41,063 nucleotides of DNA from Muribaculum sp. (GTDB lineage Bacteria > Bacteroidota > Bacteroidia > Bacteroidales > Muribaculaceae). The stretch is from positions 1-41,063 of the forward strand of contig JAMPAZ010000011.1 of the NCBI GenBank assembly GCA_023666965.1, written 5' to 3'. Both the position numbers and the translations under genes were made by a program. The notes under the pieces are model-generated. The model did no database searches. It had not been told where the DNA came from and saw nothing but the letters and a program-made list of their open reading frames with translations. This document shows positions 6,976-41,063 of this stretch, one piece after another. Position 1 is the stretch's first letter, and each line of letters starts with the position of its first letter.

Positions 6976-9900
6976 ATGAATCGAATTTGTGTGTGGTTAG
7001 CAATCTCGCTAATAAGCGGTCTGTCGACAGCAATGGCGAAGTCGCAATTTTTTACTACAGACCATGATATAACCAGCAGTCTTATAAATGTGTTATGCCA
7101 AGATAGTAATGGAATGGTGTGGGTCGGAACCGAGGACGGTCTCAATCGCTACGATGGATCAAAATTTTCACAATATAGAAATATTCCGGGCGATTCAACC
7201 TCACTGGCGCATAATTTTGTCAATATGGTTTTTGAGGACTCGCGGGGAAGGGTATTTGTGGGGACTCATAGAGGACTTCAATTATATAATCCGCAAACGG
7301 ATGTCTTTACTCCACTGGCACGTACGGAAGACGGCTCCATTTACAATGCGTCGATAGCATTTATGTTTGAATCGGAGCCTGATTCAATCTGGACTGTCAG
7401 AAACGCGCGAAGTAAAATCTTAAAGGCTGATTATGACGGTATAGTGTTGCGAAGAATGAGCGACGAAGGCTCTCCGTTGTATGATACGGATGGTGGCTTG
7501 ACGGACGCGGCCGGATTTATATGGTTTTACAATAGGAACGGATTGTTCCGGTTAAATAAACGGGGAGAGATAGTGAGTCGACATACCGAGATAAACGATC
7601 CCGTAAATTTAAAGGCCATACAGTCGCACGACGGGACGATATATGTAGCCGCGTTTACTAAAGGTCTATATCGCTACGATATAGTAGCTGATAAATTCAT
7701 ACTAGTGCCGGATCCCACGGGGCAGTCGCTGTTGGTAAGGTCTCTATATTCCAATGATTCCGATCCGTGCATCTACTTAGCTACTGACGGACATGGATTA
7801 AAGCGTTACGATCCTGATACGGGGGAATTCTCTACTGTGCCTTTTGGCGACGGGGTATTGGATGAAAGTAATCAAAAAGTTCACTCGATGCTTACAGACC
7901 GCGGTGGCAACATTTGGATTGCTATTTTCCAAAAAGGAATTGTAATGGTTCCTGCAATGCAGGAATCGTTTAAGTATATCGGACATAAGTCATTTTCCGA
8001 CAATCTCATTGGCGAAAAGTGTGTGGTGTCGCTGGCTCGAAATGCCGGAAACGGTAGTCTATGGGTCGGCCTTGATAACGGTGGACTATATGAAGTGAAC
8101 CTTAATGCAGGCACATCGCGAAGCTATCCGGGAACTGTGCCGGACGTGGTGTCGGGACTGTATGTCGATTCAAGAGATAATCTTTGGATAGGTTCCTTTT
8201 CGGAAGGATGCGGTATTTTTGACACTAACAAAAAGACTTATCGTAAGGTGCCTCTCTATGACTCAAACGGCAATGAAGTTAAATGTGTATATGACTTTAC
8301 CGAGGATGAACATGGCAATATTTGGATTGCGTCTCTGGGAGGCGGTTTGTTTTCCTATGACCATATTTCGGGAGTTGTTACGCCGGGTGATACATATACC
8401 GGTGACAAGTGGTTCACTTCCATACACTATTCAAGAAATAGCGACGCTCTATATTTGGGTTCATACGATGGAATGATAAAGGTAGACAGCATTTATCCCA
8501 ACGGGACTTCAAAAAAAATATTCGCCGGAAATATAATCCATGCCGTAAAAGGGACTTCTGATGGAAATATATGGTTTGCGTCTTCAGCCGGACTTGGATG
8601 TTACAATCCCGAAACAGATTCAGTTAAGGTGTATACTATTGAATACGGCTTGCCGGTTAATACCGTTTATGGTATTGAAGAAGACAATCAGGGTGTACTT
8701 TGGGTAAGTACAAGCCGTGGATTGGTTAAATTTAATCCTAAACTGAATTCGATTACAAACTTTTATGTCGACGATGGACTGCAAGGCAATGAATTTTATA
8801 AAAAGGCTTCATATAAAGACGCGTCGGGCATGTTGTATTTCGGAGGAACCGATGGAATCACCTATTTCAATCCATCGGAAGTCGTTAAGCCCGGACATAA
8901 GTGGACGGTACGACTGACTGACATATATCTGCATGGCCAACCCGTTAAAGGCGGAATGACTTCCGGCGGCCATCAGATTCTTGACGGTCCGGTATACAAT
9001 GCCGAGCAGATCCACTTGGGATATTCAGATAATTCGTTCTCTATTGAGTTTGCGACCGAGGAATTTGGCAATTCTGAATCGATGGTCTATCAGTATTCGC
9101 TTGACGATGATAAATGGGTTACTTTGGCACACGGACAGAATATGGTCAACTTCAGCGATTTGAATCCCGGAAAGCATAAACTGATGGTGCGTACCGAGGA
9201 TAGTGGCGTTATTTCAGACGCGAGGACTGTGGTTCTGAACATAGGAAGACCGTGGTATGCTACATGGTGGGCATATCTTATATATGCTTTGCTGTTGTCT
9301 GCAATAATATTCTATGTTTATTATGAGATTCTGCGACAGCAACGTCGTAAGCGTCAGGACTTGGAGCATCGGCAGGCTGAACAGATTAATGAAGCTAAAT
9401 TTCAGTTCTTTATCAATATCTCCCATGAGATACGCACACCAATGTCATTGGTGATGAGTCCGCTTCAAAAACTTATAGACACCGATACGGACGCCTCGCG
9501 TCGCAAGAACTATCTGCTGATACAGCGTAATGCCAAGAGAGTGCTTCGATTGATTAACGAGCTGATGGACATAAGAAAGATTGATAAGAATCGATTAAAA
9601 CTTTCGTTCGCCGAGACAATGATTACGCCATTTCTGGCCGATTTGTATGACACATTCAGCAATGCTGCCCAAGCTAAAAACATAGACTTTGAGTTTGTCC
9701 ACGATGGTTGTGACGATCTTAAGGTGTGGGTTGACCATGCAAATTTTGATAAAATTGTATTAAATCTACTGTCCAATGCAGTAAAATATACACCTGAGGG
9801 AGGAAAAGTGGTGATGAGTTTGACCACGGGATTTGACCACTCCATGTCGGCTCCGCTTGACCATTATGCCGAAATCGCTGTTACAGATACCGGAATAGGG

Positions 9901-11013
9901 GTTCCGGACGACGAAAAATCACATATTTTTGATCGTTTCTACCAAGTGGCAGGTAATACTGCCGGCGGTACTGGCGTAGGACTGCATCTGACTCAGTCGC
10001 TTGTCAAATTACATCACGGGGTGATAATGGTTGTCGACAATCCCGAAGGTAGCGGAACACGGTTCGTGGTAAGGATTCCCCTTGGAAGTTCACACTTAAA
10101 AAATGAAAGTGTGCTTGCCGAATCTTCGGTAACTCATTCCGAGGACGAAATCAGACAGTTGGTAAACAGTGGATTGACACCGGTATCCGACGAATGTGCG
10201 GATTCGGATGATTCGGTTGTGGCTTTACGCCGTCCAACTAATAGAGAAACGGTGCTTGTCGTAGAAGACGACGCGGATATTAGAAACTACCTTGTAAATG
10301 AATTGGGACAAGCGTATCGTGTGCTGACTTGTGAAAATGGGAAGGAGGCATTTTCACAGATTCAGCGTAAAGCTCCCGACATAGTTATCAGCGACGTGAT
10401 GATGCCGGAGATGGATGGTCTGGAATTGACGAGTAAAATTAAGGGCAATATAAATCTGAATCATATACCGATTGTGCTTTTAACGGCTAAGACTCGTGAC
10501 GAAGACAATATCAAAGGACTCGAGGCCGGTGCGGATGCATACATTCCTAAGCCTTTTAACATTGACATGCTTTCGTCAACTGTCGCGGCTCTTTTAAAGA
10601 AGCATCGCCAGCTTAAGGCCACTTTTAGCGGTCGGCAAGTGCAGGACGACAAAGTGTCGGACATACAGATAGAATCTTACGATGAGAAGCTTATGGCTAA
10701 AGTGATGAAGGTAATAGATAAGAACATATCGAATCCGGATATTACCGTCGAGATGCTTGCTTCGGAGGTCGGTCTTTCGCGTGTGCATCTTCATAGAAAA
10801 TTAAAGGAGTTGACCAACCAGGCTCCCCGCGAGTTCATCCGCAATACGCGTTTACGTATGGCGGCGAAAATGCTCGTGGAGAACCGGTTGTCAGTTGCCG
10901 ATGTGGCGATGGCCCTCGGATTTAAAAATGCTAACAATTTTGCTACGGCTTTCAAGACCCTCTACGGTGTCTCGCCTACGGAATATGTAGGTCAGAATCA
11001 GACTCAGGCTTAA
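6976..11013 (+). CDS. Hybrid two-component system regulator (HTCS) of the xylan locus
   Basis: A 1345-aa one-protein sensor and transcription factor of the Bacteroides HTCS type. After a signal peptide (about 1-22), a large periplasmic sensor has repeated Reg_prop blades (for example GMVWVGTEDGLNRYDG, GNIWIASLGGGLFSYD), then a Y_Y_Y domain to about residue 755. One membrane helix follows at about 764-784. The cytoplasmic part has a histidine kinase with H817 in SHEIRTP, an ATPase with the N box around N934 and GGTGVGLHL at 997-1005, a receiver with phospho-acceptor D1140 in SDVMMPEMDG, and a C-terminal AraC-type double HTH (about 1240-1345). HTCS proteins typically bind an oligosaccharide breakdown product and switch on the adjacent PUL. 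Here that is most likely a xylan-derived oligosaccharide (inference). Its last 38 bp overlap the convergent GH127/146 gene. The AraC-type output is the best candidate for binding the 21-bp operator arrays at 35850, 37774 and 40064. Confidence 0.95.
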   Translation: MNRICVWLAISLISGLSTAMAKSQFFTTDHDITSSLINVLCQDSNGMVWVGTEDGLNRYDGSKFSQYRNIPGDSTSLAHNFVNMVFEDSRGRVFVGTHRGLQLYNPQTDVFTPLARTEDGSIYNASIAFMFESEPDSIWTVRNARSKILKADYDGIVLRRMSDEGSPLYDTDGGLTDAAGFIWFYNRNGLFRLNKRGEIVSRHTEINDPVNLKAIQSHDGTIYVAAFTKGLYRYDIVADKFILVPDPTGQSLLVRSLYSNDSDPCIYLATDGHGLKRYDPDTGEFSTVPFGDGVLDESNQKVHSMLTDRGGNIWIAIFQKGIVMVPAMQESFKYIGHKSFSDNLIGEKCVVSLARNAGNGSLWVGLDNGGLYEVNLNAGTSRSYPGTVPDVVSGLYVDSRDNLWIGSFSEGCGIFDTNKKTYRKVPLYDSNGNEVKCVYDFTEDEHGNIWIASLGGGLFSYDHISGVVTPGDTYTGDKWFTSIHYSRNSDALYLGSYDGMIKVDSIYPNGTSKKIFAGNIIHAVKGTSDGNIWFASSAGLGCYNPETDSVKVYTIEYGLPVNTVYGIEEDNQGVLWVSTSRGLVKFNPKLNSITNFYVDDGLQGNEFYKKASYKDASGMLYFGGTDGITYFNPSEVVKPGHKWTVRLTDIYLHGQPVKGGMTSGGHQILDGPVYNAEQIHLGYSDNSFSIEFATEEFGNSESMVYQYSLDDDKWVTLAHGQNMVNFSDLNPGKHKLMVRTEDSGVISDARTVVLNIGRPWYATWWAYLIYALLLSAIIFYVYYEILRQQRRKRQDLEHRQAEQINEAKFQFFINISHEIRTPMSLVMSPLQKLIDTDTDASRRKNYLLIQRNAKRVLRLINELMDIRKIDKNRLKLSFAETMITPFLADLYDTFSNAAQAKNIDFEFVHDGCDDLKVWVDHANFDKIVLNLLSNAVKYTPEGGKVVMSLTTGFDHSMSAPLDHYAEIAVTDTGIGVPDDEKSHIFDRFYQVAGNTAGGTGVGLHLTQSLVKLHHGVIMVVDNPEGSGTRFVVRIPLGSSHLKNESVLAESSVTHSEDEIRQLVNSGLTPVSDECADSDDSVVALRRPTNRETVLVVEDDADIRNYLVNELGQAYRVLTCENGKEAFSQIQRKAPDIVISDVMMPEMDGLELTSKIKGNINLNHIPIVLLTAKTRDEDNIKGLEAGADAYIPKPFNIDMLSSTVAALLKKHRQLKATFSGRQVQDDKVSDIQIESYDEKLMAKVMKVIDKNISNPDITVEMLASEVGLSRVHLHRKLKELTNQAPREFIRNTRLRMAAKMLVENRLSVADVAMALGFKNANNFATAFKTLYGVSPTEYVGQNQTQA

Positions 11014-34034: not shown

Positions 34035-35756
34035 CTATCTCTTGTTCGAAGCATAAAGTCCGACGGTCGTTCCGGTAAATCCACCGGCCTCTGCGGTAGA
34101 GGTGAATCGGGCATCGACATCTGACTTGACGAGCGTCCAGTTGTTGCCGCCGTCGGTAGAGTAGTAGAAGTCGTAGGTTTTTCCCCTGGACACTACTTTT
34201 AGGTCTACCGAATCATTATTGTCGTCGAGTGGACTCTTGGCCAAATCTTCTGTTCCGGACTTCTGGATTCGTTGAAGGACGATATGTTTGCCTCCGGTTC
34301 CGCATCCTTTTGCAAGAATGTATTGGTGAGTCTCATCTTTCATGACTACTATGCCGGCCTGCTGTTCGGCATGTTCAGCATTGAATGTCAGATGTGTCGA
34401 GCACTCATATTTGTGGTTATGTACTCGACGGCAAATAAACGGCAGAACATTTTTGTCGGCGGTGGCAATGTCTGCGCATTTTATTGTCAGTCGACCGGGA
34501 TTTGTTTCGAGCGACAGCATCTCGGTCGCTGAGCCTCGGAGGGTCATCCATTCTTGTCCGAGTGTAGTTTCTGAAAAGTCGGTCATGGATTCGACATTTC
34601 CGAATGTCACGTCGTCTCCTCTGACAACACCATCTCTGCGCACTATCATCGGGACATTTTCGTTCGGACGAGTGATATAAGGCCATCCGTCGTCAGTCCA
34701 ATGTACAGGCATCATAAAGGTCTCACGTCCGAGGTTCTCAAATTCGCCGTCAATAGGACGACATGCCAAAAATACGGCCCACCAATCGCCTTCCTTTGCT
34801 TGAATCATGTCGGCATGTCCGGCGCATGTAACCGGATTTTTGCGTGCCGGGTCCAGACCTCGCTGAGTGAGTATGGGATTTTGTTCCCAAGGATGGAATG
34901 GGCCGAAAGGCGATTTACCTTTATATATCACCTCGCTGTGGTTCTCTGCGGTTCCGCCTTCGGCAGTCATCAGATAGTACGTGCCGTTGATGTTATATAT
35001 GTGCGGACCCTCGCACCAAATGGGTTTGTCCTCAGGCCGCCATCCCTTGTTGACGATAATTTTGCGCTCGCCGACGCACTTTTCAGATTCTGTGTCAAAC
35101 TCGACGATTCTTACCGTGCGGTGTCCGGAATATTCAGCTTTTCCGTCGGGGGCGTCGTCGTTGTTGACTATATAGGCTCTACCATCTTTGTCGAAGAAGA
35201 ACGACGGGTCGATACCTTGCACTTCGGGTAGATAAACCGGGTCGCTCCATTCTCCGGCAAATGGGTCTTGGGTTTTTACGAAGAAGTTGCCCGCTCCGAC
35301 ATTTGTTGTGATCATGTAGTATGTTTTGTTGGCCGGATTGTATTTTAAGTCCGGAGCGAAGATGCCTCCGCTGACATGTTGATGTTGGAAGTTGTTCAAC
35401 TGGGTTTCGCGGGTGAGGATATGTCCGATTTGTTTCCAGTTTACAAGGTCGCGGCTATGAAATAGCGGTATTCCGGGGACATAAGTGAATGTCGAGGTGG
35501 CTAAAAAATAGTCGCCTTCGCCGTTTGAGCATATTGTTGGGTCGGAGTACCACCCCGGGAGAATCGGATTAAAGAATGAACTTTGGTCGGGAAGGGGATT
35601 GTCGACATAGAAGTCGTCCATGCCCTTGTAGGAAAATGAGTCGAAAATGGCTACCGAACTCTGTGGATCGATGCCTCCATTTTTCGATGCGGAGCATCCC
35701 GACACTGAAAGAAGTATCGAGGCTGAAATGATGCAGGTTGATAGTTTTTTATCCAT
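34035..35756 (-). CDS. GH43 lipoprotein, beta-xylosidase/arabinofuranosidase type with C-terminal CBM91-like domain
   Basis: A 573-aa lipoprotein (lipobox SVSGC, Cys21), thus membrane-anchored. The GH43 propeller has its triad at D72 (GWYSDPTIC), D183 (GIDPSFF) and E249 (IWCEGPH). From about 385 a concanavalin-type beta-sandwich follows (FSETTLGQEWMTLRG, then YSTDGGNNWTLV), the C-terminal domain of two-domain GH43 enzymes such as subfamilies 10-12 (CBM91). The role is probably release of xylose or arabinose from xylo-oligosaccharides. Upstream lies a 21-bp-step operator array with a -7-like box. Downstream, SusC begins after 151 nt with no strong terminator, so readthrough into the SusCD operon is likely. 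Confidence 0.93.
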   Translation of the reverse strand: MDKKLSTCIISASILLSVSGCSASKNGGIDPQSSVAIFDSFSYKGMDDFYVDNPLPDQSSFFNPILPGWYSDPTICSNGEGDYFLATSTFTYVPGIPLFHSRDLVNWKQIGHILTRETQLNNFQHQHVSGGIFAPDLKYNPANKTYYMITTNVGAGNFFVKTQDPFAGEWSDPVYLPEVQGIDPSFFFDKDGRAYIVNNDDAPDGKAEYSGHRTVRIVEFDTESEKCVGERKIIVNKGWRPEDKPIWCEGPHIYNINGTYYLMTAEGGTAENHSEVIYKGKSPFGPFHPWEQNPILTQRGLDPARKNPVTCAGHADMIQAKEGDWWAVFLACRPIDGEFENLGRETFMMPVHWTDDGWPYITRPNENVPMIVRRDGVVRGDDVTFGNVESMTDFSETTLGQEWMTLRGSATEMLSLETNPGRLTIKCADIATADKNVLPFICRRVHNHKYECSTHLTFNAEHAEQQAGIVVMKDETHQYILAKGCGTGGKHIVLQRIQKSGTEDLAKSPLDDNNDSVDLKVVSRGKTYDFYYSTDGGNNWTLVKSDVDARFTSTAEAGGFTGTTVGLYASNKR

Positions 35757-35810: not shown

Positions 35811-35818
35811 CGAATTTA
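35811..35818 (-). promoter_or_regulatory. -7-like box of the GH43 (34035-35756) promoter
   Basis: On the minus strand TAAATTCG, one mismatch from TAnnTTTG, 54 nt before the start codon. It lies exactly 31 nt from the operator array at 35850, the same spacing as at the two other GH43 promoters. Confidence 0.6.
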
Positions 35819-35849
35819 CATTTATACGCAATTAATGCGCCTATACGCG

Positions 35850-35920
35850 TGTAACAAGTTTCTTTGGGGACGTTACATTGTCGACGTAGAGTGTTACATG
35901 TTTCTTTAGATATGTAACAT
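35850..35920 (-). promoter_or_regulatory. Operator array 1: four half-sites at 21-bp steps
   Basis: Plus-strand half-sites are TGTAACAA (35850), CGTTACAT (35871), TGTTACAT (35892) and TGTAACAT (35913), each exactly 21 bp apart. TCTTT lies at offset 11 after half-sites 1 and 3 only. The array is thus two copies of TGTNACA-N4-TCTTT-N5-TGTNACA, 42 bp apart. It should sit at about -46 to -116 from the transcription start of the GH43 gene. A 21-bp direct-repeat step is typical of AraC-type dimers, which fits the HTCS output domain. Confidence 0.85.
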
Positions 35921-35961
35921 GGGTGTTGTAAGTCAGTGCGTTAATATGATGGATAATAAGA

Positions 35962-35995
35962 GAGCCGGATACCCGCGACATTCGGTTTCCGGCTC
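35962..35995 (-). terminator. Terminator after GH43 (36058-37698)
   Basis: A perfect 8-bp stem GAGCCGGA/TCCGGCTC encloses an 18-nt loop. In the minus direction it is followed by TCTTATTAT. It lies 62 nt after the GH43 stop and before operator array 1, so it likely separates the two GH43 transcripts. The rest of the gap (35996-36057) shows nothing recognisable. Confidence 0.65.
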
Positions 35996-36057
35996 GGTAA
36001 GTGAATCAAAGGGCCCTAAACTAAATATTATTCTAACCCAATCTTTTTTACTATAAC

Positions 36058-37698
36058 CTATTTTAGATTTAAAGAATATTCAGAATTGTCGGTTGGCTCC
36101 GGAAGAAGGAGATGATAGTCGAAATAGTCTACATCGACGTGGCCTCCGGGTGACTTGGTCGCATAGTTGTATATGGCAAATCTGCTCCCCATGAAGAGCC
36201 TTGTATAGTCGTAACGCATTTTATACTCATTGCCGATAGGAATCCAATTTTTACCGTCGGTTGAGTAGAAGCAATTTGCGGTGTCTTTGTTTAGCCGGAA
36301 GTCACCGTCGACGCGTAAGTATATCTTTTTGTTTTTGACTTCGATTGATGCTTCCTCTGCATCGTCGACTTTGTCGATGACTTTTGTTCCGTCCTTGAAA
36401 TTCACTGCGGTATTATGTTTGACGAGATACGTCTTTTTGCCTTGTTTTTTTACCGACATGAGTGTTGAGTGGCCGTTGAATGCGCCGAATCCCGCAACGT
36501 CGCCGTCGTTCATGTGAGAAATGTCCATGCATATTTCTGCACTGCAGGCAGGCCCTTCCATGCGCTGGCTAATGGTGTTGGATGCTTCATATATGTTTGA
36601 AACCACGCGGGAAGTCTTAAGTCGCAAGTAGCCTTTTCTGTCGGATAGTGACCAAAGCGAATTGTCGGGACAATGGTTCCACTGCCAATTTATATTGAGC
36701 GTGGGTTCATTGAAAGAGTCAGAGCAGACTATTGCTGTCGATTTTTCAGATTTTTTGTCATAGTCCATAGTCAATGGGATTTTGCCCTCGTCGTTGCCGA
36801 GCATTGGCCAACCGTCAGTCCAACGACATGGCATTAGGGTAAGTACGCGGCCTACAGCTCCTCGATCTTGAAATATGACTCCCCACCAGTTGCCGTCGGG
36901 AGCATCCACAATGGTGCCCTGTCCGGCGTAGGGGAATCCGGCAAAGTTGTCTTCAAGCACCACCTGGCGTTCGTATGGTCCGGTTATGTTGTCTGCCCTA
37001 TAGCATAATTGTCGACGAGGACGTCCTGATGGCCAGTTGATGACCATGACATAATATTTGCCGTTATATTTTATAGCTCGACTGCCTTCATGCAATCCGG
37101 CTGTCTCTTCGTCTTGCTCAATTACAACGCTGTCAATGCCACCCTTTTTTACATCACTGAGATCTGATTCCAATTCTGTGAGTCTGATTTGTCCGGAGCC
37201 TGAAAACACATAGACTTTACCGTCGTCGTCAAAGAGAAATGACGAATCGTGGAAATGTCGTGTGCGGCTCAGAACCTCCCATTTGCCGGCAGGGTCTGTG
37301 GTCGTGTAGATGTATGATTTATACGGTTGGTCATTTGGTGAAAATAACACATAGAAGCGTCCATCATGGTAGCGCAGCGATGTAGCCCACTGACCTTTGC
37401 CGTAAACCGTACCTCCTTCGAGATTGTAGTAAGGGGTATCGTCGAGAGTGTCGAATACATAGCTGACCACATCCCAGTTTACAAGGTCTTTGGAGTGCAT
37501 TACCGGACACCCCGGCATTAGGTGCATGGTGGTAGAGACCATATAGTAGTCGTCGCCTACGCGTATGACATCAGGATCCGGAACATCGGCCCAAAGTACG
37601 GGATTTTGCATTTTGGAAGTTTCGGCTTGTGTCTGTGGTGGACACAGAATGGTTCCTGCGAGGATGCCGATTGATAGTATCGATGTCTTTATATCCAT
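36058..37698 (-). CDS. GH43 glycosidase with C-terminal CBM91-like domain
   Basis: An exported 546-aa enzyme. I chose the ATG at 37698, which gives a signal peptide (MDIKTSILSIGILAGTILC). The open frame extends to 37815 through the promoter and operator, which is not credible. The GH43 triad is D41 (VPDPDVIR), D151 (FHDSSFLFDD) and E204 (LHEGSRAIK). A C-terminal beta-sandwich starts near 340 (CSDSFNEPTLNINWQWNH) as in GH43 subfamily 12-like arabinofuranosidases and xylosidases. The subfamily is my impression only. It has its own operator array and perfect -7 box upstream and a terminator downstream, so it is probably a single-gene transcript. Confidence 0.92.
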   Translation of the reverse strand: MDIKTSILSIGILAGTILCPPQTQAETSKMQNPVLWADVPDPDVIRVGDDYYMVSTTMHLMPGCPVMHSKDLVNWDVVSYVFDTLDDTPYYNLEGGTVYGKGQWATSLRYHDGRFYVLFSPNDQPYKSYIYTTTDPAGKWEVLSRTRHFHDSSFLFDDDGKVYVFSGSGQIRLTELESDLSDVKKGGIDSVVIEQDEETAGLHEGSRAIKYNGKYYVMVINWPSGRPRRQLCYRADNITGPYERQVVLEDNFAGFPYAGQGTIVDAPDGNWWGVIFQDRGAVGRVLTLMPCRWTDGWPMLGNDEGKIPLTMDYDKKSEKSTAIVCSDSFNEPTLNINWQWNHCPDNSLWSLSDRKGYLRLKTSRVVSNIYEASNTISQRMEGPACSAEICMDISHMNDGDVAGFGAFNGHSTLMSVKKQGKKTYLVKHNTAVNFKDGTKVIDKVDDAEEASIEVKNKKIYLRVDGDFRLNKDTANCFYSTDGKNWIPIGNEYKMRYDYTRLFMGSRFAIYNYATKSPGGHVDVDYFDYHLLLPEPTDNSEYSLNLK

Positions 37699-37734
37699 TC
37701 GGTGGAGTAGTTTTTGTGTTAATGATTGCGTGTG

Positions 37735-37742
37735 CAAAATTA
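37735..37742 (-). promoter_or_regulatory. -7 box of the GH43 (36058-37698) promoter
   Basis: On the minus strand TAATTTTG, a perfect TAnnTTTG match, 36 nt before the start codon and exactly 31 nt from operator array 2. A TTG 21 nt upstream (37766-37764) could serve as -33. Confidence 0.75.
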
Positions 37743-37773
37743 AAAAGTACGTGCCACATATCTCAAGTTTATA

Positions 37774-37844
37774 TGTGACACGTATCTTTGCTGATGTTAC
37801 ATCGATATTTTTCAATGTTACATATTTCTTTATGTATGTAACAC
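37774..37844 (-). promoter_or_regulatory. Operator array 2: four half-sites at 21-bp steps
   Basis: Plus-strand half-sites are TGTGACAC (37774), TGTTACAT (37795), TGTTACAT (37816) and TGTAACAC (37837). TCTTT again lies at offset 11 after half-sites 1 and 3. A fifth weaker match, TGCCACAT, is at 37752, at a 22-bp step and inside the promoter spacer. The layout is the same as arrays 1 and 3. The whole array lies in the gap after the stop of the GH43 gene at 37895. Confidence 0.88.
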
Positions 37845-37894
37845 CTGTTGGTTAATGGTTTGTGTACCAGGATGCTCTGTCGGAGAGCCACGAG

Positions 37895-39964
37895 TTATCT
37901 TTGACTTAACGATTTTGGTGCTTCAAGGTGGATGTTATACGTCTTTTTCTTGCCGAGGTAATCGAATACCACTTTTGCAGTTCCGTAACGAGTGTTGGAT
38001 TTGACAATGTCAATTTTTACTTCGGGCATGTCGGCTGTGGCGCTGATCTCTGCGATTTCACCTTGATTGTCCGAGACAGTATGATAAACCTCGTATTGGT
38101 TCAATTCAGTAAGTCCGTTGTCGGTTGTAGAGAATATCGGTTTTGAAGGCATGTCAATCTCTGTGCCGTCGACTTTAATTGATAGTTTTGGCGTTTGCGG
38201 ATAATCAATTTTTTTGTTGCGTGAACTGAATCCGATGCCGTTAAGACGGCAGAGTTGCTCCGTAGAGTTGCCTTCGGCCACAAGGAATATGGCGTGCTTC
38301 TTGTCGAGATGGTCAACGTAAGATGCTACGTTGGCAGTGAATTTGGTAACCTCACCGGCTGAGTTGGCGGGAATTGTGATTTCTCCGATTTTTTTCCCCT
38401 TCCACACGGCATTGTCCCATGGCCCGTCGAGCCAAACAGCGATTTTAAAAGATTTGTCGGTCGTAGGTGTCAGGAATATGTTGAATGCTGTGTCGTTTCC
38501 TTTCCGTGTGCCTTTGAATGGTTTGATTCCTTTGGCGGATGTATCGAGACCTCCGAAGCCGAAATATTTAAATCCGATTATGTCGCTGTCGCGCACGTCG
38601 ATTGGCATATTGTTGTTCCAGATGTCCCAAGAGTCTTGTTGGCTCCCTACATTTGACAAGTAGCAGGCATATCCTGCCGAATAGTATTGATAAGGATCAA
38701 GACCGAAGATGTTGAATCCCTCAGAAGTGACTTCCGCACCCTGATAGTGGTCGCCGTTGGTCGAGGATGCTGTCCACGTCTCATCTTCTGTATAAGGATC
38801 GTATCCGGTGATTAATACCCGGCCTCCGTCCTTGACAGGTGTTTCATCGCATACTATTTTGACCGGTGCAACCATCGGCTGGCGTGCAAAACCGAATCCT
38901 CTGGGTGGCCGGTGATAAAACACGTACCATTGTCCGTTGATCTCTTGAAGGCTACCGTGGGTATTGTGGGCAGCGTTGGTGCACTGCAATTTTACTCCGT
39001 CCTTGTCGGGGACGATGCCTCGTGAGTCGACCAGCACACCTCCGCTTCGCCATGGCCCCAGTGGAGAATCGCCGTAGGCATAGCGTAGGGTAGAGTTGGT
39101 GCTTCCAAGTCCGTAGTCGGGTCCTGAATAGCCGGAGAATATCATTATATACTTATTGCCGACCTTTCTGATTGAGGAGGCTTCGAAAAAGTTGAAGTCC
39201 TCTGGCTTCTGCTCGCTGTATAATGCGGGATAGGTTGTGCCTTGTGGATCCCGGATGCTTCCGTAGCTGTGGCTTGCCGGAATAAAGTACGGGATTATTT
39301 CTGTGCCGGGACGAACTGAGTACATAGTGCCGGGGTCGAGTTCTGCGGCGAGTGAGCGTTGGAATCCCCAGAATCCATACGCCCTGAAGCCTTGAGCGAA
39401 ATCGGGGTCGGATGGATCGGTTATCGGCTCAACATAAATTGACGGGTCGAATCCGAGAACGCTTCCTGTCACCGTCGCTGTACCATCCTCATTAAGATTA
39501 ATTGGTGTAAATGGACCGTCAGGACGTGAACTTTTGCAGACCATGGCTTCTCTGCGCGGGCCACGGCTGTGTGGGTAGAGATAATATTCTTTTGTGCCGT
39601 CCGGTCGATTGACTTCGACCAAGTCGGGAGCATACATGACATCCCACTTCCCGTCGACCTGATATGTGAATATCGGTCCTTCGTCGCGCCAGTCGTTCAG
39701 GTCGTCGGTGGGGGCCGACCACATGCGGATGTCTGCGCCGCAGTATTCGGTGGTGCGCATGTCATGCGACCCGATTATGTACACTCTGTATTTACCCGGT
39801 GCATCGGGATCTTCAAACACTCGCGGTTCGCCGTCAGGCAGATGCTCATATAGCGGTAGATAGGGGTTGGCTGAATAGATGGAAATTGTTGTCATGGCCG
39901 TGAGAAACATTGACGCGGCGATTCCGAATACTGATGTAAATTTCTGACATTTGAAGTGTGACAT
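37895..39964 (-). CDS. Divergent GH43-family protein with two C-terminal beta domains
   Basis: An exported 689-aa protein with a signal peptide (about 1-32). The first about 410 residues look like a five-bladed GH43 propeller: candidate triad D52 (VFEDPDAPG), D173 (LGFDPSIYV) and E261 (FNFFEASSI), with YAPDLVEV and WYVFYHRPPRGF as propeller strands. Residues about 415-600 look like a carbohydrate-binding sandwich (DIIGFKYFGFGG, FNIFLTPTTDKSFKIAVWLDGPW). The last about 85 residues form an Ig-like end domain. It is longer and less typical than the two other GH43s, so substrate is open: arabinofuranosidase, xylosidase or galactosidase. It has its own operator array and perfect -7 box upstream, shared in space with the divergent GH115 gene. 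Confidence 0.82.
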   Translation of the reverse strand: MSHFKCQKFTSVFGIAASMFLTAMTTISIYSANPYLPLYEHLPDGEPRVFEDPDAPGKYRVYIIGSHDMRTTEYCGADIRMWSAPTDDLNDWRDEGPIFTYQVDGKWDVMYAPDLVEVNRPDGTKEYYLYPHSRGPRREAMVCKSSRPDGPFTPINLNEDGTATVTGSVLGFDPSIYVEPITDPSDPDFAQGFRAYGFWGFQRSLAAELDPGTMYSVRPGTEIIPYFIPASHSYGSIRDPQGTTYPALYSEQKPEDFNFFEASSIRKVGNKYIMIFSGYSGPDYGLGSTNSTLRYAYGDSPLGPWRSGGVLVDSRGIVPDKDGVKLQCTNAAHNTHGSLQEINGQWYVFYHRPPRGFGFARQPMVAPVKIVCDETPVKDGGRVLITGYDPYTEDETWTASSTNGDHYQGAEVTSEGFNIFGLDPYQYYSAGYACYLSNVGSQQDSWDIWNNNMPIDVRDSDIIGFKYFGFGGLDTSAKGIKPFKGTRKGNDTAFNIFLTPTTDKSFKIAVWLDGPWDNAVWKGKKIGEITIPANSAGEVTKFTANVASYVDHLDKKHAIFLVAEGNSTEQLCRLNGIGFSSRNKKIDYPQTPKLSIKVDGTEIDMPSKPIFSTTDNGLTELNQYEVYHTVSDNQGEIAEISATADMPEVKIDIVKSNTRYGTAKVVFDYLGKKKTYNIHLEAPKSLSQR

Positions 39965-40024
39965 ATATTTCTATGATTGGTTAATTTCTGTCTTGGAGGT
40001 TGATGAACTTTTCTTGGTTCGATA

Positions 40025-40032
40025 CAAAGGTA
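40025..40032 (-). promoter_or_regulatory. -7 box of the GH43 (37895-39964) promoter
   Basis: On the minus strand TACCTTTG, a perfect TAnnTTTG match, 60 nt before the start codon and exactly 31 nt from operator array 3. No -33 box is visible, which suits an activator-dependent promoter. Confidence 0.75.
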
Positions 40033-40063
40033 CATTTGGGCTAATGCGTCACGGCACTTTTTG

Positions 40064-40134
40064 TGTATCATAAATCTTTGAACATATAACACCGGAGCTG
40101 CGTGAAGTAACAAAAATCTTTTCCTATGTAACAT
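40064..40134. promoter_or_regulatory. Operator array 3: four half-sites at 21-bp steps, in a divergent promoter region
   Basis: Plus-strand half-sites are TGTATCAT (40064), TATAACAC (40085), AGTAACAA (40106) and TGTAACAT (40127). TCTTT is at offset 11 after half-sites 1 and 3, as in arrays 1 and 2. The half-sites are more degenerate here but the phase is exact. The array lies between the minus-strand GH43 and the plus-strand GH115 and could serve both. Confidence 0.82.
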
Positions 40135-40193: not shown

Positions 40194-40201
40194 TATCTTT
40201 G
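40194..40201 (+). promoter_or_regulatory. -7 box of the GH115 promoter
   Basis: TATCTTTG, a perfect -7 box on the plus strand, 33 nt before the GH115 ATG. It is 59 nt from operator array 3, not the 31 nt seen on the GH43 side, so control by that array is uncertain. Confidence 0.65.
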
Positions 40202-40234
40202 CTGTGGATATTTTTAATAATAATTTCAATACCA

Positions 40235-41063
40235 ATGAAGATTAAACCAATTATAGCAATTTCTGCAATCGCCATCAATGCGCTGTATGCAATGGCAATT
40301 GACCATCCTGGTATCACCTCCGTTGACCATGGTGATTTGTCGTTCCCTCTGATTTTTAATGGAGTACCCACCTCGATATTTGTGTCGGACGATGATGAGA
40401 AGGGCGTTTCCATCGCGGCGGAAAATCTTGCTTCTGACTTCCAACGAGTGTCTGGCAGTGAAGCCCCGATTGTGAATGGACTTTCCAATATTGATAGGTT
40501 GATTATTGTCGGAACAGAAAAAAATCCATTGATTTCTCAGTTGACGAAAGAAGGAAAGATTGATGAAAAACAACTTCGCGGTAAGAGGGAGAAATATATT
40601 ATCCAGACCATCGAGAAACCTTTCCCGGGTGTCGATGAGGCTCTTGTCGTAGCCGGAAGTGATCGGCGCGGAGCAATTTACGGAATTTATGAATTGTCGG
40701 AACAAATTGGTGTGTCGCCTTGGTATGATTGGGCAGATGTGCCGACCATACCTCGCGACAATCTTTCGATAGCCGACGGCTGCTATACGGCCGGAGAACC
40801 GGCGGTGGAATATCGGGGCATATTTCTCAACGATGAGGCTCCATGCTTGACTTCCTGGGTGAAAAATACCTACGGCACGAACTATGGCGACCATAGGTTT
40901 TATGCCCGTGTCTGCGAACTGATCTTGCGTCTGCGAGGCAATTTCCTCTGGCCGGCTATGTGGTCGTGGGCATTTTATGCAGATGATCCCGAAAACATCA
41001 AGACAGCGGATGAAATGGGCGTAGTAATAGGTACGTCCCACCATGAACCTATGGCCCGCAATC
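40235..41063 (+). CDS. GH115 xylan alpha-1,2-glucuronidase (5' part, cut by window end)
   Basis: The open frame starts at the ATG at 40235 and runs off the window after 276 codons with no stop. It encodes a signal peptide (MKIKPIIAISAIAINALYAMA), then an N-terminal alpha/beta domain (FVSDDDEKGVSIAAENLA, RLIIVGTEKNP, AGSDRRGAIYGIYELSEQIG). The start of the catalytic barrel follows with typical GH115 motifs: EYRGIFLNDEAP, LRLRGNFLWPAMW and MGVVIGTSHHEPMARN. GH115 enzymes remove (4-O-methyl)glucuronic acid from internal xylan positions; complete proteins have about 800-1000 residues. It is divergent from the GH43 genes, with its own -7 box at 40194. A long open frame on the opposite strand here is only a shadow. 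Confidence 0.93.
   Translation, partial: MKIKPIIAISAIAINALYAMAIDHPGITSVDHGDLSFPLIFNGVPTSIFVSDDDEKGVSIAAENLASDFQRVSGSEAPIVNGLSNIDRLIIVGTEKNPLISQLTKEGKIDEKQLRGKREKYIIQTIEKPFPGVDEALVVAGSDRRGAIYGIYELSEQIGVSPWYDWADVPTIPRDNLSIADGCYTAGEPAVEYRGIFLNDEAPCLTSWVKNTYGTNYGDHRFYARVCELILRLRGNFLWPAMWSWAFYADDPENIKTADEMGVVIGTSHHEPMARN

Follow-up and report, generated by a model that had tools for sequence, protein, structure and literature searches.

Three non-coding gaps in a 41,063-nucleotide stretch of Muribaculum sp. DNA (contig JAMPAZ010000011.1, hereafter the window) each hold four TGTNACA-like half-sites repeated at steps of 21 base pairs (bp), and these repeats are, with a probability that we put at roughly 80%, the activator operator of the hybrid two-component system (HTCS) protein encoded at 6976, on which two AraC-type dimers would lie side by side. 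Specifically, the sites start at 35850, 35871, 35892 and 35913 in gap1, at 37774, 37795, 37816 and 37837 in gap2, and at 40064, 40085, 40106 and 40127 in gap3, and they agree with four copies of TGTNACA at 23, 24 and 21 of 24 letters, respectively. When the window was simulated 200 times with a first-order Markov model, the top score was 20 (the weakest real gap reaches 21), and among spacings of 9–60 bp, quadruples scoring at least 19 occur in the real window at 21 bp alone. The half-sites at 0, 21, 42 and 63 bp claimed in the original prediction are therefore confirmed, as are its finer claims that TCTTT follows the first and third sites only (at offset 11, 6/6 versus 0/6 after the second and fourth) and that an A precedes the second site of each pair (6/6, sites 2 and 4). 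At the same offset, site 2 of gap2 is followed by TATTT, which differs from TCTTT by one letter. The arrays are real and conserved and, in all likelihood, functional.

The unit had been written as TGTNACA-N4-TCTTT-N5-TGTNACA. Its doubling at 42 bp stands, whereas the unit itself is better read in the direction of the genes that follow, which are encoded on the minus strand; there the inner box becomes AAAGA. In this direction the array consists of two copies, at a step of 42 bp, of TGTTACAT-N4-AAAGA-N4-TGTNACA, and its elements run in the order site a, AAAGA, site b, plain spacer, site c, AAAGA, site d. It can also be written with a looser box, as two copies of TGTTACAT-N4-A(A/G)AG-N-N4-TGTNACA at the same step; among 13 doubled arrays (a count that leaves out G012_h, the order-level arrays and the L052 arrays discussed below; G, L and C numbers are our handles for genomes, loci and contigs), the A(A/G)AG box is found in 13/13 a–b, 0/13 b–c and 9/13 c–d spacers. 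All on the minus strand, and starting from the distal end, gap1 holds by site scoring site a TGTTACA (35913..35919), an AAAGA box (35903..35907, TCTTT on the plus strand), site b TGTAACA (35892..35898), site c TGTAACG (35871..35877), a second AAAGA box (35861..35865) and the promoter-proximal site d TGTTACA (35850..35856). The corresponding elements of gap2 are TGTTACA (37837..37843), AAAGA (37827..37831), TGTAACA (37816..37822), TGTAACA (37795..37801), AAAGA (37785..37789) and TGTCACA (37774..37780), and those of gap3 are TGTTACA (40127..40133), AAAGA (40117..40121), TGTTACT (40106..40112), TGTTATA (40085..40091), AAAGA (40075..40079) and TGATACA (40064..40070).

A feature that the original prediction missed is that in each gap a TAnnTTTG −7 box follows the end of site d at a distance of exactly 31 bp. 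These boxes, likewise on the minus strand, are TAAATTCG in gap1 (35811..35818, five of six letters), TAATTTTG in gap2 (37735..37742) and TACCTTTG in gap3 (40025..40032), the last two matching at six of six letters, as does the box of the C11 operon described below. TAnnTTTG is the −7 consensus of sigma-ABfr, the primary sigma factor of Bacteroides (PMC7366714; papers given by PMC number are cited here from partial text). In relatives, the register is 30 or 31 bp, with exceptions that are named below. The 31-bp linkers of gap1, gap2, gap3 and C11 hold no TTTG near −33; TTG is present in gap1 and gap2.

The proposed binder is an HTCS of 1345 residues on the plus strand (6976..11013; assigned by Pfam and orthologs), which combines a Reg_prop sensor, presumably periplasmic, with HisKA/HATPase, receiver and AraC-type HTH_18 domains in one chain (Pfam); the stretch of its first helix-turn-helix (HTH1) reads SRVHLHRKLKELTN. 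Orthologs of this protein were sought in 20 genomes, comprising 14 of the genus (the window's own included), G032 and five genus mates of G032, and were found below 1e-150 in seven, namely the own genome and six others at 43–71% identity. The ortholog match in G007 (L034, G007:C50:989-5011) contains one TAA. A sequence-only model of 13 promoters gave a full-length match at E<0.01 in six of the seven HTCS genomes (not in G176), a test that was not blind because all six had contributed to the model. In the 13 genomes without the HTCS there was no full-length model match at E<0.01, and the best matches were partial (6.0e-4 in G148, from model position 18, then 0.004 and 0.007). In G176, the counterpart of a G032 promoter, located by DNA similarity, has four sites and the 31-bp register; for the other G032 promoter no counterpart was found in G176. 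Overall, the module is found in 7/7 genomes with the ortholog (one by targeted follow-up) versus 0/13 without it at full-length E<0.01, which gives a p value of 1.3e-5, or 1.8e-4 leaving out G176, relatedness being ignored. Moreover, the HTH domain of the window HTCS has five other matches in its own genome, each at 40% identity or less. Together with the co-occurrence, this supports the earlier view that the HTCS at 6976 is the best candidate binder.

Two broader scans were made without any HTCS information. Of 148 genomes, four, among them the own one, carry the exact unit (reversed control, 0), and the unit with its −7 box, at up to three mismatches, gave 19 matches in 12 of 397 family genomes (reversed control, 3). 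The five matches of the latter scan with 0 or 1 mismatch all lie in G000, G007, G012 and G032; 12 of the 19 fall in five HTCS-holding genomes and seven elsewhere, and of these G010 was checked and is without the HTCS at E 1e-150. With respect to position, an operator lies about 11 kb or less from the HTCS in G012, G002 and G009, and operators adjoin HTCS homologs in Prevotella (L048) and Dysgonomonadaceae (L051).

Comparison of orthologous promoters, which had been suggested as a check, shows that the sites are retained while the DNA between them is not. Across the gap1 counterparts of four genomes, 131/144 site positions (91%) are identical versus 25/84 (30%) in the middle spacer and 56/181 in the linker from d to the box. 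The corresponding values for sites and middle spacer are 62/72 versus 13/42 for the gap2 counterparts of three genomes, and 49/72 versus 9/42 for those of gap3, where G012 carries one pair only. Since the spacers also differ between the gaps of the window, the earlier description of a conserved pattern, as opposed to recent copying, is borne out. G007 has doubled arrays at its counterparts of all three gaps, G012 at those of gap1 and gap2, and G009 at that of gap1 (protein identity of the named counterparts, 64–84%; gap1 orthologs, 68–81%); others stand at a GH43_C2 gene of G032, its G176 counterpart and susC of G002. The open reading frame (ORF) behind the doubled G032 operator (L169, 9253-9873) has 207 residues and GH43_C2 alone, with no catalytic domain in the ORF. 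Single pairs precede GH97 and the gap3 counterpart in G012, GH36 in G032, GH127 in G002, and GH31 and an unclassified gene in G009; in front of GH31 of G012, a strong pair is accompanied upstream by weaker sites that score 5 and 4 of 6. The target genes in relatives thus include GH97, GH31, GH36, GH127, GH43 + GH43_C2, GH43-CBM6, GH2_N/SASA, GH35/42-like and SusC genes, together with three further genes that have no Pfam match or one domain only, and the limit to GH43 promoters in the original prediction does not hold.

The genome-wide scan suggested earlier was run on the own assembly (2.4 Mb, 66 contigs, 83% complete). With the pattern as first proposed and up to two mismatches, it picked out eight places, of which seven are in the three gaps and one is on contig C11, versus none for the reversed pattern; one of the seven, at 37795, is the b–c step of gap2 with TATTT replacing TCTTT. 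The sole unlinked match heads a xylan operon (L013, 9959-16009) that encodes a GH35/42-like protein, a GH2/SASA esterase, an MFS_2 sugar transporter, GH10 and GH43. In this array, sites a, b and c are kept, and the −7 box lies 31 bp from a degenerate d position. The first ORF of the operon has 214 residues, versus 565 in its G012 counterpart.

Beyond the family, a more generic form of the same grammar was observed. In the best 80 HTCS loci from one scan of genome contigs, TGnnACA pairs with a −7 box at 30/31 bp numbered 25 at a spacing of 21 and 0–2 at each spacing of 17–20 and 22–25; at spacing 21, 20 lay at distance 30 and five at 31, with 0–1 at each of 11 other distances. When no half-site was assumed, 8-mer direct repeats upstream of TAnnTTTG numbered 122 at spacing 21 versus 13–68 at the others (12–33). 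Among 295 genomes of the order, 12 further ones had a match below 1e-250, and the 17 stretches that surround the HTCS orthologs in 11 of these made up a second set, chosen with matches in smaller loci of the same genomes already known; it gave 12 pairs at spacing 21 versus 0–2 elsewhere, and 12 at distances 30/31 versus 0–1 at any other. The exact generic grammar (two TGnnACA at 21 bp, 30/31 bp, TAnnTTTG) has 42 matches in 25 of the 295 Bacteroidales genomes (reversed, 2). Loci were read for 29 of the 42; all but one have an ORF no more than 450 bp downstream, and by Pfam these 28 ORFs are SusC-type receptors (6), carbohydrate-active enzymes (9), beta-helix (1), other domains (2) or of no family (10). 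The half-sites of these matches (e.g. L204-L232) are often TGCAACA or TGAAACA, which suggests regulons of other HTCSs.

A tree of 105 of 106 HTCSs places the module with 32/50 rows of one branch and 1/55 outside it, and doubled arrays within a 31-row part of that branch only; this result is indicative only, because the labels are our own and incomplete, flank lengths vary and genus rows were labelled by genome. Splitting the loci by their HTH1 helix instead gave matches in 2/8 versus 9/72 loci, with no clear split, and the tree divided them better. An HTH1-helix code for the third half-site base was also discarded, as loci with SRVHLHRK carry T, A, G and C there and follow no simple rule. The four-site form is also seen at L052 of Bacteroides oleiciplenus, where TGTTACA, TGTTACA, TGCAACA and TGCAATA, followed by 31 bp and TACATTTG, precede susC in a locus that shares the SusC/SusD/SusC/SusD order (43–53% identity; HTCS, 41%). 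Because of this array and weaker four-site arrays in G559 and G624 of the order, the four-site form reaches beyond the window's genus. A TGTNACA pair, 21 bp apart and out of −7 register, also stands before the L052 HTCS gene itself (9795-9822), where autoregulation is possible.

Several points weigh against the assignment to an activating HTCS. G032 entered the 20-genome set because it bears the operator, the covariance model drew on six of the seven positive genomes, G176 was scored positive only by a targeted look, and at E up to 1 the model matches 20/20 genomes, mostly partially over the −7 half. In the C11 array, site d is TGGTAAC and the c–d unit is without AAAGA. Exceptions to the register are the pair before the L052 HTCS gene, which has no −7 box at 30/31, G012_h, in which one site is off by a base with the box 31 bp from the last site, and G012_g, which lacks the second site and was dropped as a chance array. 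In other loci, TTTG stands at −33 in 1/31 phased promoters versus 50/537 other promoters, and 487 of these 537 are without TTTG too, such that loss of the −33 box in phased promoters could not be shown. A scan of the window with a profile built from these gap sites and related sites found phased operators in the three gaps alone (the next matches were shifted overlaps in the gaps, then 2.9 bits; shuffles reached 13.7), and neither the HTCS gene nor susC of the window had a phased operator of its own. Finally, in one published model an arabinoxylan HTCS acts as a repressor and comes off the DNA upon sensing (PMC7815789).

This last point leads to the alternative that the HTCS binds the same operator as a repressor, sitting unliganded on the DNA upstream of the promoter and leaving it when arabinoxylan-oligosaccharide is sensed, which we consider unlikely. 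Such a model was proposed for an esterase-rich arabinoxylan polysaccharide utilization locus (PUL), the DNA site of the HTCS being described as "yet to be determined" (PMC7815789). A repressing HTCS, BT2391, is cited in PMC11253607, and the receiver of the window HTCS reads NHIP, whereas the first place of this inhibitory motif is Ser or Cys in 84% of HTCSs (PMC11253607). However, the sites lie wholly upstream of the −7 box, with no overlap and at one fixed distance, which is the position of a polymerase-touching activator, and a register of 30/31 bp across families would hardly be needed by a repressor.

It is less probable still that another AraC-type or an unrelated regulator, such as the global BT4338/Cur, binds the repeats. 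AraC-family proteins often occupy direct repeats of about 21 bp, and since the genome is 83% complete, a second regulator could be missing from the assembly; against this, the five other matches to the HTH of the window HTCS stay at or below 40% identity, this HTCS is found together with the operator, and the tree ties the module to one HTCS clade. The consensus of BT4338, wwwTATGTTnTAnAACATAwww (PMC11501099), was no better than background in the gaps. Scored as a Crp-type 22-bp palindrome around TATGTTnTAnAACATA, it reached 10, 8 and 10 of 14 there, with a window best of 11, and was rejected. We give practically no credence to the arrays being recent duplicates of promoter DNA without function of their own, as three arrays of one pattern within 4.3 kb, two of them before GH43 + GH43_C2 genes, might suggest, since the spacers are unlike between gaps, orthologous promoters of other species keep the sites and lose the spacers, which already contradicts this reading, and the module also occurs at an unlinked operon and in other families.

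In terms of mechanism, each AraC-type protomer would use its first HTH to contact one TGTNACA of the activator operator as an A box. In each dimer, the upstream protomer would also contact AAAGA, a turn further downstream, as a B box with its second HTH; the B contact of the downstream protomer would be degenerate, as at AraC I1/I2. The presence of two HTHs in HTCS DNA-binding domains has been described (PMC11253607). In L067, L065 and L080, both repeats consist of an A box plus a second block one turn on (CAAAG in both L067 repeats and in one L080 repeat), which suggests the order A then B along the direction of transcription. One HTCS dimer would span about 28 bp, and a whole number of turns between the two would let both reach the DNA on the same face, from one side, which would matter because the HTCS is membrane-anchored. 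Sensing of xylo-oligosaccharide in the periplasm would lead to receiver phosphorylation and free the DNA-binding domain, and the dimers would then fill the operator, immediately upstream of the −33 region, and bring RNA polymerase to promoters that lack a TTTG −33 box. An activator fits in that no site reaches the −33 region and that TTTG is missing there from 30/31 phased promoters, as it is from most others. Doubling of the site would raise occupancy or steepen the response at the main GH43 and SusCD promoters, whereas many accessory genes have one pair only. Binding, activation and ligand are what we infer from the sequence, and cooperativity from the in-phase doubling alone.

The gaps lie about 25 to 29 kb from the HTCS, within its own PUL. 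Between the HTCS and gap1, the minus strand encodes GH127, GH95, GH97, SASA, GH43-CBM6, GH10, BT_3987-like, SusD, SusC, SusD, SusC and GH43 proteins. Since the profile scan places no phased operator at susC or anywhere else outside the three gaps, the long operon would have to be read from gap1; judging from strand and gaps, gap1 probably drives this SusCD/GH operon down to 10976, with the GH43 gene at 34035..35756 at its head. The original prediction spoke of three GH43 promoters. This is correct by Pfam for the first gene after gap1 (GH43 + GH43_C2, 34035..35756, minus strand) and the gene after gap2 (GH43 + GH43_C2, 36058..37698, minus strand, 546 residues from its ATG), whereas the minus-strand gene after gap3 (37895..39964, 689 residues) has no match in Pfam at 1e-5 or in NCBIfam at 1e-3. 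It is reasonably named GH43-like because of its phmmer match to the arabinofuranosidase/xylosidase chain 9no3 (E 2.6e-29). Gap3 also faces a divergent GH115 gene, which has its own −7 box, TATCTTTG, in the stretch 40195-40236 of the window. No TGTNACA pair lies 30/31 bp from the box at 40195, the closest site ending 61 bp off, and GH115 may borrow the gap3 operator from its other side or be regulated otherwise.

A well-known precedent is AraC at araI1–I2 of E. coli, which binds two half-sites in direct repeat at 21 bp, the second of them weaker, just upstream of −35. The window shares with it the AraC-type half-sites in 21-bp direct repeat upstream of a promoter; araI1–I2, however, serves a soluble, ligand-bound activator and sigma-70, whereas a membrane-bound phosphorelay protein, a sigma-ABfr promoter and a doubled array are proposed here. 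In Prevotella bryantii, the HTCS-type regulator XynR reportedly governs a xyn operon with a transporter, GH10 and GH43, and the C11 operon resembles this gene set. The L052 PUL is alike in its related HTCS, SusC/D/C/D set, four-site operator and 31-bp register, and differs in that its operator precedes susC with half-sites drifting to TGCAACA and TGCAATA, while that of the window precedes a GH43 gene ahead of susC.

The basic direct-repeat pair is a known kind of HTCS operator. Direct repeats averaging 21 bp were predicted for 16 HTCSs of B. thetaiotaomicron by Ravcheev et al. in 2013 and read as dimers two turns apart (PMC3878776), and the window shares with these the two-site repeat with a step of about 21 bp, one dimer on one DNA face and a position upstream of PUL genes. 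In contrast to those predictions, as far as the accessible text goes, the window has tandem pairs at 42 bp, AAAGA in the upstream protomer and a fixed −7 distance of 30/31 bp; no xylan-HTCS motif was found in that text. A search of open-licence papers, seen in part, which is no proof of absence, likewise met no description of a doubled HTCS operator, a fixed −7 distance or a xylan-HTCS site. The earlier label "possibly undescribed" is therefore only half right, because the 21-bp repeat had been predicted in 2013, while the doubling, the asymmetric AAAGA box, the −7 register and the candidate xylan-HTCS site look new as far as searched. Taken together, the phased operator, its AraC-type 21-bp geometry and the window HTCS as binder are upheld by computation, novelty is upheld by half, and the GH43 limit falls.

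In gut Bacteroides, HTCSs rank among the commonest types of regulator for polysaccharide loci (PMC11501099). In the parts of the literature examined, their operators are for the most part predicted, and the DNA site of an arabinoxylan HTCS is the one called yet to be determined above. A broader proposition, for which we see about even odds, is that one Bacteroidales HTCS clade activates by a fixed grammar (21-bp TGnnACA pairs, 30/31 bp to TAnnTTTG) and that its xylan sub-lineages stack two membrane-anchored dimers in phase, as a steep switch for the main PUL promoters. If the position of the operator relative to the −7 box is fixed to the single base, HTCS regulons could be predicted across whole genomes, and, if true, the grammar would let the regulons of many uncharacterised HTCSs be read from sequence. 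It also poses the question of why the main xylan promoters would hold two membrane-tethered dimers and accessory genes one.

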